Source: Bifidobacterium catenulatum DSM 16992 = JCM 1194 = LMG 11043
GTDB lineage: Bacteria > Actinomycetota > Actinomycetes > Actinomycetales > Bifidobacteriaceae
Assembly (NCBI RefSeq): GCF_001025195.1
Contig: NZ_AP012325.1
Coordinates: 1,240,001-1,304,000, forward strand
Reading direction: 5' to 3'
DNA: 64,000 nucleotides
Shown here: piece after piece, positions 13,747-63,644 of the stretch
How positions within the stretch are numbered: the first letter of the stretch is position 1
Layout of the letters: every line of letters begins with the position of its first letter
Made by a program: the position numbers and the translations under genes
Notes under the pieces: generated by a model
Databases searched by the model: none
Told to the model about the DNA's origin: nothing
Seen by the model: the letters and a program-made list of their open reading frames with translations, nothing else

Positions 13747-13826
13747 GGTCTCCACCATACTCCTTGGGTTGCGCAAGTCGTTACGTCAAGCAAGATGGTA
13801 TGCCTTCGCTTCACAAATGTTGACGG

Positions 13827-13870
13827 TATAAGCGAGAGCCGCCCGACGAATCGGACGGCTCTCGCTTATA
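13827..13870 (-). terminator. Terminator of ppgK
   Basis: Perfect 15-base arms TATAAGCGAGAGCCG and CGGCTCTCGCTTATA enclose a 14-base loop that can itself pair (CCGA with TCGG). Located directly after the ppgK stop codon. Confidence 0.8.
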
Positions 13871-13901
13871 CGAAAGTTGGGAACCTTAATGGTTCACGGC
13901 A

Positions 13902-16038: not shown

Positions 16039-16047
16039 ATACGGCGT

Positions 16048-16139
16048 AATGCAGGGGAACCCGTGTTTGTCGGGTTGAGATAGGCCAAGTGAGGCCTGAA
16101 CCCTTTGAACCTGATGGTTAATACCAGCGTAGGGAGGCA
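16048..16139 (+). ncRNA. TPP riboswitch (THI element)
   Basis: The conserved thi-box is plain: GGGGAACCCG and CGGGTTGAGA near the 5' end, then CTGAACCCTTTGAACCTGAT and TAATACCAGCGTAGGGA at the 3' end. It ends on the purine-rich sequence that serves tenA as ribosome binding site, so ligand binding probably blocks translation initiation rather than causing termination. No terminator hairpin lies between aptamer and gene. Confidence 0.95.
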
Positions 16140-16145
16140 TGTCTA

Positions 16146-16913
16146 ATGACTGCTGTGACATCAACAACCAATTTCGATTATGAGTTCGACGCCGCCAAAG
16201 GCATCCAACGCAACAATCTTCCTCCGTTCGCGCAGCGCATGCGCAAGGCTGCTGACCTGGTTTGGGAGGAAGGCTACCAGCAGCCGTTCATCCGCGAGCT
16301 TGGTGAAGGCACACTGCAACGCGAGCGTTTCGCCTTCTATCTGCTGCAGGATTTTCGTTATGTGAACGATTACGCCAGAGTGCACGCTTTGGGATTAGCC
16401 AAGGCCACCGACCCTGAAATCATGGCGTTCATGCTCAAGGTGCAGAACGGCGCCCTGCAGGTCGAGACCGAAGTACACCGCTCCTACTTGGCCAGCTATG
16501 GCATCACCGAAGAGCAGATGAACAATGTGCGCCAGTCGGCCTTCGCGCGTGCCTACACGTCGAATATCCTTTCCATCGCCTATGGCAAGGATATTCTCGA
16601 CATTCTTGTGGCCGTGCTGCCGTGCGCCTGGGTGTATGCGGATTATGGTTACCGTCTTGCCGCCGAGTTTGCCGACACGCTTGACGACAATCCGTACAAA
16701 AGTTGGGTCGACATGTATAAGACCGACGAATTCTGGCAGGATTCCGTGTGGCTGCTCGAACATATCGAGAAACTGGTAGCCGACGCGAGCGAGGAGCGCA
16801 AGCGCGAGCTGATTGACATTTTCGTGACCGGCGTGGAGAACGAGTACATGTTCTGGGCCAGCGCGTACGACATGCAGTACACGTGGAAGCCCGAATGGAA
16901 TCAGGAGCGCTGA
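16146..16913 (+). CDS. tenA: TenA-family thiaminase II / aminopyrimidine aminohydrolase
   Basis: 255 residues, all helical TenA fold. The enzyme hydrolyses aminopyrimidine breakdown products of thiamine (and thiamine itself) for salvage of the HMP moiety. Key family residues are visible: LLQDFRYVNDYARVH (Asp and Tyr of the pyrimidine pocket), VLPCAWVYADYG with the nucleophilic cysteine, and VENEYMFWASAYD with the catalytic glutamate. ATG at 16146 lies five bases after the end of the TPP element; an ATG at 16139 is in another frame. No other thiamine gene is adjacent. Controlled by the riboswitch upstream and closed by a strong hairpin. Confidence 0.93.
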   Translation: MTAVTSTTNFDYEFDAAKGIQRNNLPPFAQRMRKAADLVWEEGYQQPFIRELGEGTLQRERFAFYLLQDFRYVNDYARVHALGLAKATDPEIMAFMLKVQNGALQVETEVHRSYLASYGITEEQMNNVRQSAFARAYTSNILSIAYGKDILDILVAVLPCAWVYADYGYRLAAEFADTLDDNPYKSWVDMYKTDEFWQDSVWLLEHIEKLVADASEERKRELIDIFVTGVENEYMFWASAYDMQYTWKPEWNQER

Positions 16914-20621: not shown

Positions 20622-20637
20622 GTTGAGCCCCGTTTCT

Positions 20638-20778
20638 TCCATCCGGACTTTGACCGTTGGCTCCGGATTCTCACCGGATCAGCCGCTTTCGCGGGTCGCG
20701 GGCTTCGGCATGGGACTGTTATGAACGTCAGTCGTACCGTTACCGCCAGTAAGGATTTTCACCTTCCCTGAAACTTGC
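20638..20778 (-). ncRNA. FMN riboswitch (RFN element)
   Basis: On the minus strand the RFN core is clear: AAGGTGAAAATCCTTACTGG, CGGTAACGG, GAAGCCCGCGACCCGCG, GATCCGGTGAGAATCCGGAG and CCAACGGTCAAAGTCCGGAT. It ends about 17 bases before the ribU start, so FMN probably controls translation; no terminator is evident before the gene. Boundaries are approximate. Confidence 0.95.
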
Positions 20779-20870
20779 AAGACAATATATACGCCCACCA
20801 TGCGATATTCGCAAACCTGTGTTCCGTTTTTATCTTGCGCTTTGGAACGCAAGATTCCTCCGACCGCACG

Positions 20871-26287: not shown

Positions 26288-26439
26288 CATTTCGCTTATA
26301 TGTGGCACTTTCTTTCACGCCAGCACCTCCATAACCTCGGAAAAATACCCCCTTGTACGGTTTTTCCCAAAAGCATCTGCCACATATAAGCGAAATGACA
26401 TCAGGCGGAATGGGAAATCTGCCACATATAAGTGATTTG
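26288..26439. repeat. Inverted-repeat element, copy 1 (three 20-mer units)
   Basis: Two perfectly complementary 20-mers, CATTTCGCTTATATGTGGCA at 26288-26307 and its exact reverse complement at 26378-26397, bracket 70 bases; a third, direct unit with three or four changes lies at 26420-26439. It fills the intergenic region between divergent pepC and the HNH nuclease gene. A related element with the same inverted, direct, direct layout lies at 63067-63207. See findings. Confidence 0.8.
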
Positions 26440-26495: not shown

Positions 26496-27491
26496 ATGCG
26501 TCGTCACAATTCGATGATGTCCGTATTGTCCGGATTGCTGGCCGTGGGGTTGGTTGTCGGCTTATCGGTTGGATCCGCGTTGGCCGTGGAACCGACCGAT
26601 AATACCGGTGCCGGCCAGAGTGCCACTCAAATGCTGGATTCATTGGAGGTCAAAGGCCGCGCCCCGAAGACGGGGTATAAGCGCACGCAATTCGGCAAGG
26701 CATGGGCCGATGTGGATCGCAACGGTTGCGATACGCGCAACGACATCCTCAACCGTGATCTGACTGACGTGAAGCATAAGGTGCGTACGCACGATTGCGT
26801 GGTGGAATCCGGCCAACTGCATGATCCGTATACCGGCAAGGACATCGCGTTCAAGAAGGGATGGAAGACTTCCACAGCGGTACAGATCGACCATGTGGTG
26901 GCGTTGAGCGACGCATGGCAGAAGGGCGCGCAGAAACTCAGCCAGACGAAGCGTACCGAACTGGCGAATGATCCGTATAATCTGCTGGCAGTACAGGGAA
27001 AGGCCAACCAGAAGAAGTCGGATGGCGATGCGGCCACGTGGTTGCCGTCCAACAAAAGTTTCCGTTGCGAATATGTGGCACGTCAGATTGGTGTGAAGCA
27101 CAAATATTCGCTGTGGATCACGCAGGCCGAGAAAGAGGCCATATCCAAGGTATTGTCCTCCTGCCCGACGCAGACCGTGCCCGATTACACGGGAGTCAAG
27201 GATTCTACAGTCGAGAAGACCACCGAATCCGAGCAGACAGAACAGACGCAGACCGAACAGCAGACCGAACAATCAGCTGAGCAGGCCCAGCAGAATCAGC
27301 AAACGACACAGGCACCTGCACCCGAACCCGCTCCGGCTCCAGCTCCCGCGCCCCAGCCAGCGCCACAGCAGGACGTCTACTACCAGAACTGTGCCGCGGC
27401 ACGAGCCGCTGGCGTCGCGCCTATCTATCAGGGACAGCCGGGCTACCGTTCACAACTGGATCGCGACCATGACGGAGTCGCCTGCGAATAA
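26496..27491 (+). CDS. Secreted HNH-type (DUF1524) protein with Excalibur domain
   Basis: 331 residues. A cleavable signal peptide (MMSVLSGLLAVGLVVGLSVG, cleavage near ALAVEP) leads to a DUF1524/HNH nuclease-like domain with VQIDHVVALSDAWQKGAQ, DPYNLLAV and NQKKSDGDAATW, the pattern found in secreted actinobacterial nucleases. A low-complexity linker of Glu/Gln/Thr repeats then Pro/Ala repeats leads to a C-terminal Excalibur calcium-binding domain (NCAAARAAGVAPI ... DRDHDGVACE). Probably exported, degrading nucleic acid at the surface or outside the cell (inference). ATG at 26496 has GAGGAG six bases upstream. Divergent from pepC across the inverted-repeat element. Confidence 0.88.
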   Translation: MRRHNSMMSVLSGLLAVGLVVGLSVGSALAVEPTDNTGAGQSATQMLDSLEVKGRAPKTGYKRTQFGKAWADVDRNGCDTRNDILNRDLTDVKHKVRTHDCVVESGQLHDPYTGKDIAFKKGWKTSTAVQIDHVVALSDAWQKGAQKLSQTKRTELANDPYNLLAVQGKANQKKSDGDAATWLPSNKSFRCEYVARQIGVKHKYSLWITQAEKEAISKVLSSCPTQTVPDYTGVKDSTVEKTTESEQTEQTQTEQQTEQSAEQAQQNQQTTQAPAPEPAPAPAPAPQPAPQQDVYYQNCAAARAAGVAPIYQGQPGYRSQLDRDHDGVACE

Positions 27492-61984: not shown

Positions 61985-62964
61985 GAATTGCGCCCCGTTT
62001 GTTGGACGTTGTTAATTAGGATACAGCCCTAGACCGCGAGGGACATGCTCCGGAACTCCTCCGGGGTATGTCCCTCGAGTCGTATCTGGCACCGTCTGGT
62101 GTTCCAATGGATGATGTAGGCGTCCAGTTCGCGTTTGAACTGTTCGTACGAGTCGAACTCTCCCGGCCTCGGTAGAACTCGTCCTTCAAGTGGCCGAACA
62201 CCTGCTCGGCGGCGGCGTTGTCCAGGCAGTTGCCCTTGCGGCTCATGGACTGGCGGATGCCGAGGCGTTCGAGCTCGCCCCGCCACCATTGGTGCTGGTA
62301 CTGCCATCCCATGTCCGAGTGCAGGATCGGCTCCACGCCGGCGGGCAGGCGCTCCGCGAGCATGACGAGCAGGCGCTTCTGCTGCCCGAGGTCCGGACTG
62401 CGGCTCACGTCCCAGGCGACGATCTCCTTGCTGGCCATGTCGTACACGGGCGCGAGGTACGCCTTGGAGCCGGCGACCTTGAACTCGGTGACGTCGGTGC
62501 CGAGCTTGGAGAACGGACGGGCCGAGTCGAAGTCGCGTTTGAGCAGGTTATGCACGTGATCGCCCGTCTCGCCCCTGTACGAGTCGTACCTCCTCCACGG
62601 GTTCCTGGAGCGGATGGCGCATCTCAGTCCCATGCGCCGCATGACCCCGGGCACGCTCTTGGCCGACACTCGTTGCCCGAACTCGTGGACCAGGCACATG
62701 CGCACCTGCCGGTGGCCGCACCCGTTCGGCGAGCTCCTGCTCGCGCGTCGGTTCGGGCTTCGGTTTGGATTTCGAGCCTCTGGGCCTGCCCTTGGGCCTC
62801 GGCCCGAGCGCCTCCGGACCTCCGGCCCGGTACTCGCGGCACCAGTGTTCCAGGGGTGCGACGCTCGCGATCCCGTGCATGGCCATGACCTCCGCCTTGG
62901 TCAGACCGTTCTCGACGTGGTCGCACGCCGCGGCGACCTTCGTCTCCCCACGTATACCGTATAG
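61985..62964 (-). mobile_element. Degenerate IS3-family (IS150-like) insertion sequence
   Basis: OrfA part: VAAACDHVENGLTKAEVMAM and WCREYRAGGPEALGPRPKGR (helix-turn-helix). OrfB part: VMRRMGLRCAIRSRN, LGTDVTEFKVAGSKAYLAPV, ILHSDMGWQYQHQWW and NCLDNAAAEQVFGHLKDEFY, giving the DDE triad. The end of orfA and the beginning of orfB are joined with a deletion near 62710, and a one-base frameshift near 62160 splits the C-terminus (FDSYEQFKRELDAYIIHWNT is in another frame). The right end GCGCCCCGTTTGTTGGAC at about 61990 looks like an IS3 terminal repeat; no left end is found. Not mobile on its own. Confidence 0.8.
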
Positions 62965-63644
62965 TCAGGAACGCTTTTATACCTGTTCTTATCTTCCGTA
63001 TGAACCACATACACCGTTGGATAATGAAGACGCGTTCTCTCGGACATCGATACCCCCTCTTATCCCTATCTCGCTTATGTATGGCAGATACACCTCAGAA
63101 AAGCGTATTTAGGGGGTATGAGAACAGCTGTTATGACAACCTGACCTGCCATATATAAGCGAGATGTCTCAGGATAAAGCACGGAATCTGCCATACGTAA
63201 GCGGGATAACCAAGCTTAAGCGCTCGTACGACACATTTTTGTGCACAAGACATTCCTCCGCAAGCGTCATCCGACCGCCTGGTGGCACGTTTCATATGCA
63301 CAGAGAAAACACAGCCCGCAAACGCCACACTCGAAGCATGACGCCAGTGGTTTTAAGGTGAAACCACGCCGATTCTGCTTGCTGATTAAGGTAGACGATA
63401 CGGGCTTTCTCTGGCATTCGTTGTCGATGGAAGCCCACTTGGCAGATTGCATGTTCCTCCCTTTCGGGTATGGAGGGAGTGTTCGGGCACTGGAGTGAGC
63501 ATAACGTAATCATGAGAGAGCAGACAAAATAACTACGGCAGCTTCGATCTTGCGCGTTCCGCCCCTCTCGGTCTTCCCTCGGCGCATCTCTACGAAGTGC
63601 TTGACGGTAATTTCTTCCAAGGTGAAATCAGCTAGTGGGGGCAA
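62965..63644. other. Region without recognisable genes
   Basis: About 680 bases between the IS remnant and the acyltransferase-like fragment. The only structure I see is the inverted-repeat element at 63067-63207; the short open frames of 60-85 codons in it have no homology that I recognise and several run through the repeats. Confidence 0.5.
63067..63207. repeat. Inverted-repeat element, copy 2 (three 20-mer units)
   Basis: Units at about 63068-63088 (ATCTCGCTTATGTATGGCAG), 63146-63165 (CTGCCATATATAAGCGAGAT, its reverse complement with one mismatch) and 63187-63207 (direct, CTGCCATACGTAAGCGGGAT). Related to the element at 26288-26439 by sequence and layout. Confidence 0.75.

Follow-up and report, generated by a model that had tools for sequence, protein, structure and literature searches.

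The inverted repeat near the right-hand end of the analysed DNA (locus 2) is, on balance, probably a worn copy, with three sites, of a non-coding element that is dispersed in some Bifidobacterium genomes, resembles REPINs, and does not require a RAYT; its sites would bind a dimeric protein, and its copies would recombine with one another. The arms of the repeat are genuine and beyond chance, yet they are part of a larger element. They are complementary at 19 of 20 positions, and five matches to the unit (up to three mismatches) occur in the window, i.e., the whole stretch of 64,000 nucleotides from Bifidobacterium catenulatum, against 0.00 expected from 100 shuffles. The initial annotation of this DNA had preferred a functional element to a decayed insertion, and this preference is supported by the strict 42-bp step between the units and by the conservation of the units above that of the spacers.

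Architecture of the element and its copies in the window

The unit together with two flanking bases forms an imperfect dyad of 22 bp whose centre is rich in A+T (consensus ATCTGCCATATATAAGCGAGAT). A full element of about 190 bp bears four such dyads in the order (-,-,+,+), with steps of 42, about 88 or 78, and 42 bp from start to start. Many copies of the 88 class carry the inverted pair GGGTA...TACCC in the centre, and the 78 class mostly keeps one half of it. A long palindrome around TTGGAATTCCAA occupies the centre in B. merycicum and B. pongonis, two species whose inner units take a form of their own, GTGCCATATATAAGCCAC.

The spacing was counted without a prior value in six sets of loci, with units of up to three mismatches and neighbours up to 300 bp apart. 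A step of exactly 42 bp separates neighbours on the same strand in 123 of 124 cases (the remaining step is 41) among loci many of which had been fetched with the 42-bp pattern, while the loci of B. catenulatum, G059, and G074 came from single-unit searches; all same-strand steps are 42 bp in B. catenulatum (7/7) and in G074 (12/12). Here and below, G059, G099, and G024 are genomes that we take to be B. adolescentis, B. pseudocatenulatum, and B. dentium, respectively. Neighbours on opposite strands lie 77–79 or 85–89 bp apart in 78 of 81 cases, the exceptions being spacings of 44 and 53 in two copies of B. pongonis from which most of the core is gone, and of 124 in B. catenulatum, where one unit bears a 4-base insertion. 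Forty selected copies of the 88 class from B. merycicum and B. pongonis (40/40) align over 192 columns without gaps, which supports the lengths of the spacers, not the total length, because these copies were picked for the 88 spacing. The 58 half-elements (of 63) picked for a half-element model also align gap-free, though their spacer positions vary freely. A four-site search that allowed inner spacings of 76–79 and 86–90 and placed the outer units at exactly 42 yielded 105 entries, including alternative registers (kashiwanohense L073, pongonis L188) and degenerate copies.

Some related structures were seen in passing. Three loci of G073 (L097, L100, and L101) contain arrays of a related unit, CTCCCGCACATAAGCCAGAT, with steps of 24, 27, and 34–37 bp, not 42. 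In the window itself, a 21-bp hairpin, GTATAAGCGAGAGCCGCCCGA...TCGGACGGCTCTCGCTTATAC, lies at 13826–13871, and its outer ends are identical to the right half of the unit (ATAAGCGAGA); it resembles a B. dentium locus (L114) in which a GC-rich hairpin is enclosed by two inverted copies of the unit.

Both loci in the window, locus 2 and a further copy termed locus 1, are three-unit copies (Table 1).

Table 1. Positions of the element parts and of an adjoining gene fragment in the window
Feature	Position	Strand	Remarks
Locus 1, left inner unit	26289..26308	-	
Locus 1, core half-site	26345..26352	-	24 bases before right inner unit
Locus 1, right inner unit	26377..26396	+	88-bp class
Locus 1, right outer unit	26419..26438	+	
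rve (integrase core) transposase fragment adjoining locus 2	62016..62705	-	PF00665, 1.6e-17
Locus 2, expected place of left outer unit	63026..63045	-	eroded
Locus 2, left inner unit	63068..63087	-	CTGCCATACATAAGCGAGAT
Locus 2, core half-site	63112..63119	+	GGGGGTAT; 24 bases past left inner unit
Locus 2, right inner unit	63146..63165	+	CTGCCATATATAAGCGAGAT; 78 bp start to start from left inner unit
Locus 2, right outer unit	63188..63207	+	42 bp past right inner unit

The arms of locus 2 had been described initially as outer units; they are real, yet they constitute the inner pair, with the right outer unit lying beyond them. The left outer unit is unrecognisable at its expected place both in B. 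catenulatum and at the orthologous locus of B. pseudocatenulatum (L153), and a second ATACCCCC is found at 63050–63057, in the expected left outer spacer and close to the left inner unit. The inner units are spaced at 78 bp in locus 2 and at 88 bp in locus 1. The statement that about four bases differ between the loci is correct for the left arm (4/20 positions), whereas the right arm differs at 2/20. An equal distance of about 30 bases from the left unit to the core had also been noted; it does not hold as stated, and the distances become equal, at 24 bases, only after mirroring, because the 24-base gap lies on opposite sides in the two loci. The core of locus 1 lies on the minus strand, closer to the right inner unit and 36 bases from the left one.

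Stable single-strand folding was predicted for both strands of locus 2 (plus strand -52.6 kcal/mol, z -6.2; minus strand z -4.4), as well as for the plus strand of locus 1 (z -7.8); in the best plus-strand fold of locus 2, the left inner arm is paired with the right outer unit. The half-element at 63146–63207 matches the half-element model with an E of 5.8e-15, a value that is not independent since this stretch is among the 58 sequences used to build the model. About 300 bp beside locus 2 are common to B. pseudocatenulatum at 96% identity. A scan of 62900–63500 revealed no promoter-like site and one terminator-like site versus 0.4 expected. Locus 1 is situated between two divergent genes, pepC and a reading frame (26496–27491) whose product bears GmrSD_C and Excalibur domains and is probably a secreted nuclease-like protein. 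No Rfam family matched the element above the cut-off, the best match below it being a microRNA family with an E of 0.89; elsewhere in the window, an FMN riboswitch (20627–20779, minus strand) and a TPP riboswitch (16043–16153, plus strand) exceed the cut-off.

Distribution of the element and constraint on its sites

The B. catenulatum genome (2,079,525 bp) contains 28 matches to a degenerate 20-mer with up to two mismatches, compared with 0 for a reversed-pattern control, and at least one such match is present in 29 of 112 genomes of the genus. The half-element model, which uses sequence only, matches 23 of the 112 at E <= 0.001 and gave no match in the other 89, with filters that lose weak matches. 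G098, whose assembly is 8% contaminated and has one contig end in duplicate, gave 48 matches, G087 gave 40, G074 34, and B. catenulatum 21. Among 149 sampled genomes of the order, the model found nothing outside the genus, B. catenulatum being the sole match and the five other Bifidobacterium of this sample giving none. Among the genomes searched, the element is restricted to part of the genus Bifidobacterium. Exact matches to a single unit in Vibrio, Riflebacteria, and Kaistella are not accompanied by the array and were taken as chance. No plasmid relative was found, nor an exact match in a collection of viral contigs (viral_contigs). A phage search returned the unannotated 5.2-kb contig MT838487.1 (L096) with a full four-unit element; this candidate relative was rejected, as its LysR-family and aminotransferase genes and CRISPR-like short repeats (by eye) look chromosomal. 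This "bacteriophage" record resembles a piece of a Bifidobacterium chromosome.

The form of the unit differs between species, being CTGCCACACGTAAGCG in G074, CCGCCATCTATAAGCG in B. adolescentis, and CTGCCAYATATAAGCG in the catenulatum group, and many copies are common to orthologous places of different species. At matching places (L105/L109), B. adolescentis and G074 have full elements, each with the unit form of its own species; thus, the site seems to drift in place. Whole 42-bp units are gained or lost at elements. At locus 1, there are no units in B. ruminantium, one in B. adolescentis, four in G083, three in the window, and five in kashiwanohense, where the count of five includes an exact 42-bp duplication. 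At 1673.2 kb of B. catenulatum, a unit has been joined to a unit-like sequence by a deletion, and kashiwanohense has a three-unit element at this place. The number and presence of units vary even between subspecies.

With gene strand assigned by a codon-position G+C rule, the genes around the 99 copies considered are convergent for 28, tandem for 34, and divergent for 14 of them; 21 copies were uncertain and 2 too short. The convergent, tandem, and divergent counts are 14, 14, and 1 in B. merycicum and B. pongonis versus 14, 20, and 13 in other species; therefore, a role as a promoter operator is unlikely in the former two only, since 13 of 47 copies in the other species are between divergent genes. 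There is no recurrent neighbour among the 93 of 152 neighbour genes that were searched: no Pfam family occurs in more than 3 of the 93 proteins, and in PADLOC the leading models, those for JetC, have just 2 members.

The identities within orthologous pairs speak for purifying selection on the dyads. In 15 pairs, the units are 0.81–0.84 identical, the spacers 0.56–0.57, the middle 0.59, and the 40-bp flanks, which were compared without gaps, 0.40; two of the original 17 pairs were dropped for unequal length, five of the 15 come from four loci (L105, L109, L184, and L196), and a sixth (another element of L109/L105) shares two of these. Since the sites change less than the spacers, the element looks maintained, not decaying. 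Eight equal-length pairs from B. merycicum and B. pongonis have an inner-unit identity of 0.92, against 0.91–0.92 for unrelated copies; such units are just as alike as unrelated ones, which is what constraint equilibrium would lead one to expect. These same observations tell against the idea of a decayed insertion without a present role, in which conservation would reflect ancestry. Several copies, including both in the window, are indeed eroded, yet we consider such an explanation very unlikely.

Pairing, rearrangements, and rival explanations

The arm pairing that had been regarded as preserved was examined by shuffling the right halves among the elements of one set, in five sets: merycicum, pongonis, G074, the catenulatum group, and adolescentis with ruminantium (n = 19, 21, 7, 11, and 5). 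Copies without a recognisable left outer unit or with inner units of more than four mismatches were dropped from the first three sets, and those without either outer unit from the last two. Outer arms pair no better within an element than between elements, with z values of 0.2, -2.1, -1.2, 0.1, and 1.9 in the order of the sets. They are complementary because a single form of the site is used by all copies within a species. The corresponding values are 3.2 (11/5000), 1.4, 2.1 (127/5000), -1.1, and 1.2 for the inner arms; 2.5 (69/5000), 0.4, 0.7, -3.7, and 0.0 for the core or middle; and -2.2, -2.0, -0.3, -1.8, and -1.7 for the spacers. In the 40-copy alignment, the outer helix is 85.8% paired and 4 of its 20 pairs are changed on both sides, the inner helix 97.0% with 4/20, and the core 76.6% with 13/19. 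The 21 pairs changed on both sides are not above the shuffles (21.9), and the covariation score of 0.144, against 0.124 after shuffling (reached in 0/500), is inflated by the relatedness of the two species and by recent inverted copies. At columns 2/191 and 12/181 of the outer helix, 20 and 21 of the 40 sequences are unpaired, which is largely the random loss of pairing that the initial annotation had set against its own interpretation. Covariation, which it had suggested testing over the collected copies, is absent from the outer arms; the inner arms and the core exhibit modest compensatory change, mainly in one species (B. merycicum, with the z values of 3.2 and 2.5 given above).

Compensatory change can result from selection on a hairpin or from template-switch correction of near-palindromes. 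One may ask whether the hairpin or cruciform itself, as RNA or single-stranded DNA, is selected, for example as a 3′ stabiliser of mRNA, a bidirectional roadblock, or a transposition intermediate. The strong folds of both loci, the convergent or tandem setting of 62 of the 76 scored copies, and the compensatory changes in the core and inner arms (with the score reached by none of the shuffles) would fit this proposal. We nevertheless hold it to be rather unlikely: the outer arms vary independently within an element both in the five permutation sets and in the 40-copy alignment, permuting the inner arms and core within a set gave a significant result in B. merycicum, a borderline one for the inner arms of G074, and none in the other sets, the covariation is inflated as described, and no Rfam match exceeded the cut-off. 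An ordinary MITE of an insertion sequence, whose units would be transposase-binding ends and whose copies would be recent insertions, could account for inverted end arrays in multiple intergenic copies and for the extra inverted copy between jetC and jetD of B. merycicum, none being found there in G074 and G062. This origin is unlikely, however, in view of the test for target-site duplication: among 71 four-unit copies, in 8 registers and with within-species permutation, exact duplications of at least 4 bp numbered 0–1, and partial matches gave a weak signal at 5 bp (30/2000) and at 6 bp (19/2000) after many registers. Moreover, no longer relative with these ends is present among the loci read, the interior length is mostly kept, and many copies at orthologous places are common between species. 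The latter persistence of positions, the set array, and the species-wide form of the site are also what one would expect of host-maintained sites that organise the chromosome, of the matS or parS kind, spread over it. Copies do lean to the origin half in kashiwanohense (15/19, four of them within 3.1 kb) and in B. catenulatum (11/15), yet the lean is weaker elsewhere (8/12, 6/9, and 4/8), congeners have from 0 to 48 half-element matches, and units vary in number and presence between subspecies, all of which makes a chromosome-organising role quite unlikely.

Some inversions, losses, and exchanges coincide with pairs of copies. In B. catenulatum, a two-gene segment (DUF559 and amidohydrolase) at 491391–493897 is inverted over 2.5 kb relative to B. 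adolescentis and G074; the inversion is common to kashiwanohense, the flanks are collinear with B. adolescentis, and units occur at both ends of the segment in all four genomes, in degenerate form in B. catenulatum and kashiwanohense. At 1848 kb, B. catenulatum and kashiwanohense carry different genes between common flanks, with the left break at a unit in both and the right one at a unit in kashiwanohense only. Nearby, at 1845.3–1847 kb of B. catenulatum (L029), an AAA_14/DUF4143 gene is flanked by a direct repeat, each copy of which consists of a sequence of about 65 bp (terminator-like, by eye) together with a unit; kashiwanohense is without the left copy of this repeat. In the Wadjet operon, G074 has the order jetC-jetD-rpoZ-metK with no unit found, B. 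merycicum jetC-element-jetD-element, and B. pongonis jetC-element-rpoZ with no JetD match in the genome, while G062 has a diverged element-like sequence after jetD (by eye). The pongonis operon that remains without jetD (L219 and L210 in merycicum and pongonis) is probably inactive. The notion of a mobile JetD cassette was rejected, as jetD follows jetC as an operon gene in B. merycicum and 19 of 20 JetD loci are without a unit (1/20 has units at the threshold used). Single elements in B. merycicum correspond to double ones in B. pongonis. This is the case around a response regulator accompanied by a 434-aa protein that lacks a Pfam match, as well as around a sortase-pilin cluster. At nine loci, both flanks are collinear between these two species without rearrangement.

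When copies of the 88 class only were ranked by likeness, four close inverted pairs were among the most alike, with ranks 1 and 2 of 190 in B. merycicum and 2 and 7 of 190 in B. pongonis. In B. merycicum, they include the mutually inverted copies on either side of the metal-type ATPase (65/68 middle positions, rank 1) and of jetD (63/68, rank 2), and in B. pongonis those on either side of the response regulator (61/68, rank 2). Likeness is not a property of all close pairs: of the 10 less than 20 kb apart in the two species, five are unlike (ranks 76 to 130 of 190), the alike pair L169/L170 (rank 6) is direct, not inverted, and the ranks of the four close pairs of G074 range from 7 to 18 of 21. 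In B. pongonis, the two copies with the greatest likeness (64/68) sit on two contigs, and the N4G05 pair is direct.

According to the reading we favour, that of a REPIN-like element with protein-bound sites, one trans-acting protein would bind each dyad as a dimer. The reasons are that the dyad changes between species in many copies at once and that 42 bp correspond to four helical turns, a step that would place the sites on the same side of the DNA. The copies would have spread by a copying step, and neighbouring ones may recombine, flipping or removing the genes between them, perhaps simply by a RecA-type process. Between inverted near-identical repeats, homologous recombination would invert the segment and gene conversion would keep the repeats alike, while direct pairs would be lost together with their cargo. 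Homologous recombination would explain the rearrangements, whereas a protein is needed to account for the strict step and the species-wide site. It is also conceivable, at a low probability, that recombination is dedicated, in a system unlike dif modules: a protein would assemble on the four-dyad array and join two copies, the modules between them would be inverted, deleted, or captured, and the site would drift with the protein in each species without leaving its place. The modules in question would be a pilus operon, jetD, a metal ATPase, toxin-antitoxin, and the amidohydrolase with DUF559.

Candidate partner proteins were sought by their domains. A RAYT was rejected, since Y1_Tnp is present in only 7 of 112 genomes (G000, G017, G076, G086, G098, G099, and G106), four of which, B. 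catenulatum included, bear elements, and is absent from many element bearers, among them the element-rich G068, G059, G074, G081, and G087; 11 of 12 Y1_Tnp loci have no unit, and one (L085) has a match with five mismatches. A serine recombinase (PF00239) was rejected as a common partner, being absent from 6 of 13 element-bearing genomes (G062, G074, G081, G099, G114, and G024). Tyrosine recombinases (PF00589) number 2 to 9 in all 13 (G062 has only two) and are also present in 14 of 14 controls.

Relation to known systems

The literature search, which covered titles and openings of abstracts of mostly open-access papers, brought up no description of such a Bifidobacterium element, and the one Bifidobacterium motif in the consulted part of PMC5217627 differs from it. 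If our interpretation is correct, the element represents an undescribed class of four-site palindromic repeats with a strict 42-bp step in some gut bifidobacteria. It would mark some of the places where genes, including the last gene of a defence operon, flip, vanish, or are exchanged, and would thereby provide a handle on the movement of accessory genes within bifidobacterial genomes. It would also be a case of a recognition site that changes in step genome-wide while its positions stay.

Among known repeats, MITEs are similarly non-coding and dispersed and have inverted ends; the present element differs in that no target-site duplication was found, its interior length is mostly kept, and its orthologous positions persist. 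The dif modules (pdif/XerCD) of Acinetobacter, as outlined in the consulted part of PMC6449649, also hold accessory genes, including toxin-antitoxin genes, between inverted recombination sites. The dif site there is 28 bp long (11+6+11), whereas the element is an array of four 22-bp dyads in 42-bp steps that is found between core genes as well. REPINs and REP-BIMEs, families with a RAYT (TnpA-REP) transposase, come closest to the element. With them, as far as they are portrayed in the sections consulted of PMC3116915, it shares short conserved sites in inverted pairs, a spacer kept in length and less conserved in sequence, a predicted hairpin, an extragenic location, multiple copies, and the occurrence of solo sites. 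It departs from them in having four sites instead of two, 42-bp steps, and a length of about 190 bp, in the lack of compensatory change in its outer arms, and in needing no RAYT (Y1_Tnp is missing in G068). We claim only that the element works like a REPIN, with no need of the REPIN transposase, and we file it among the interspersed palindromic repeats.
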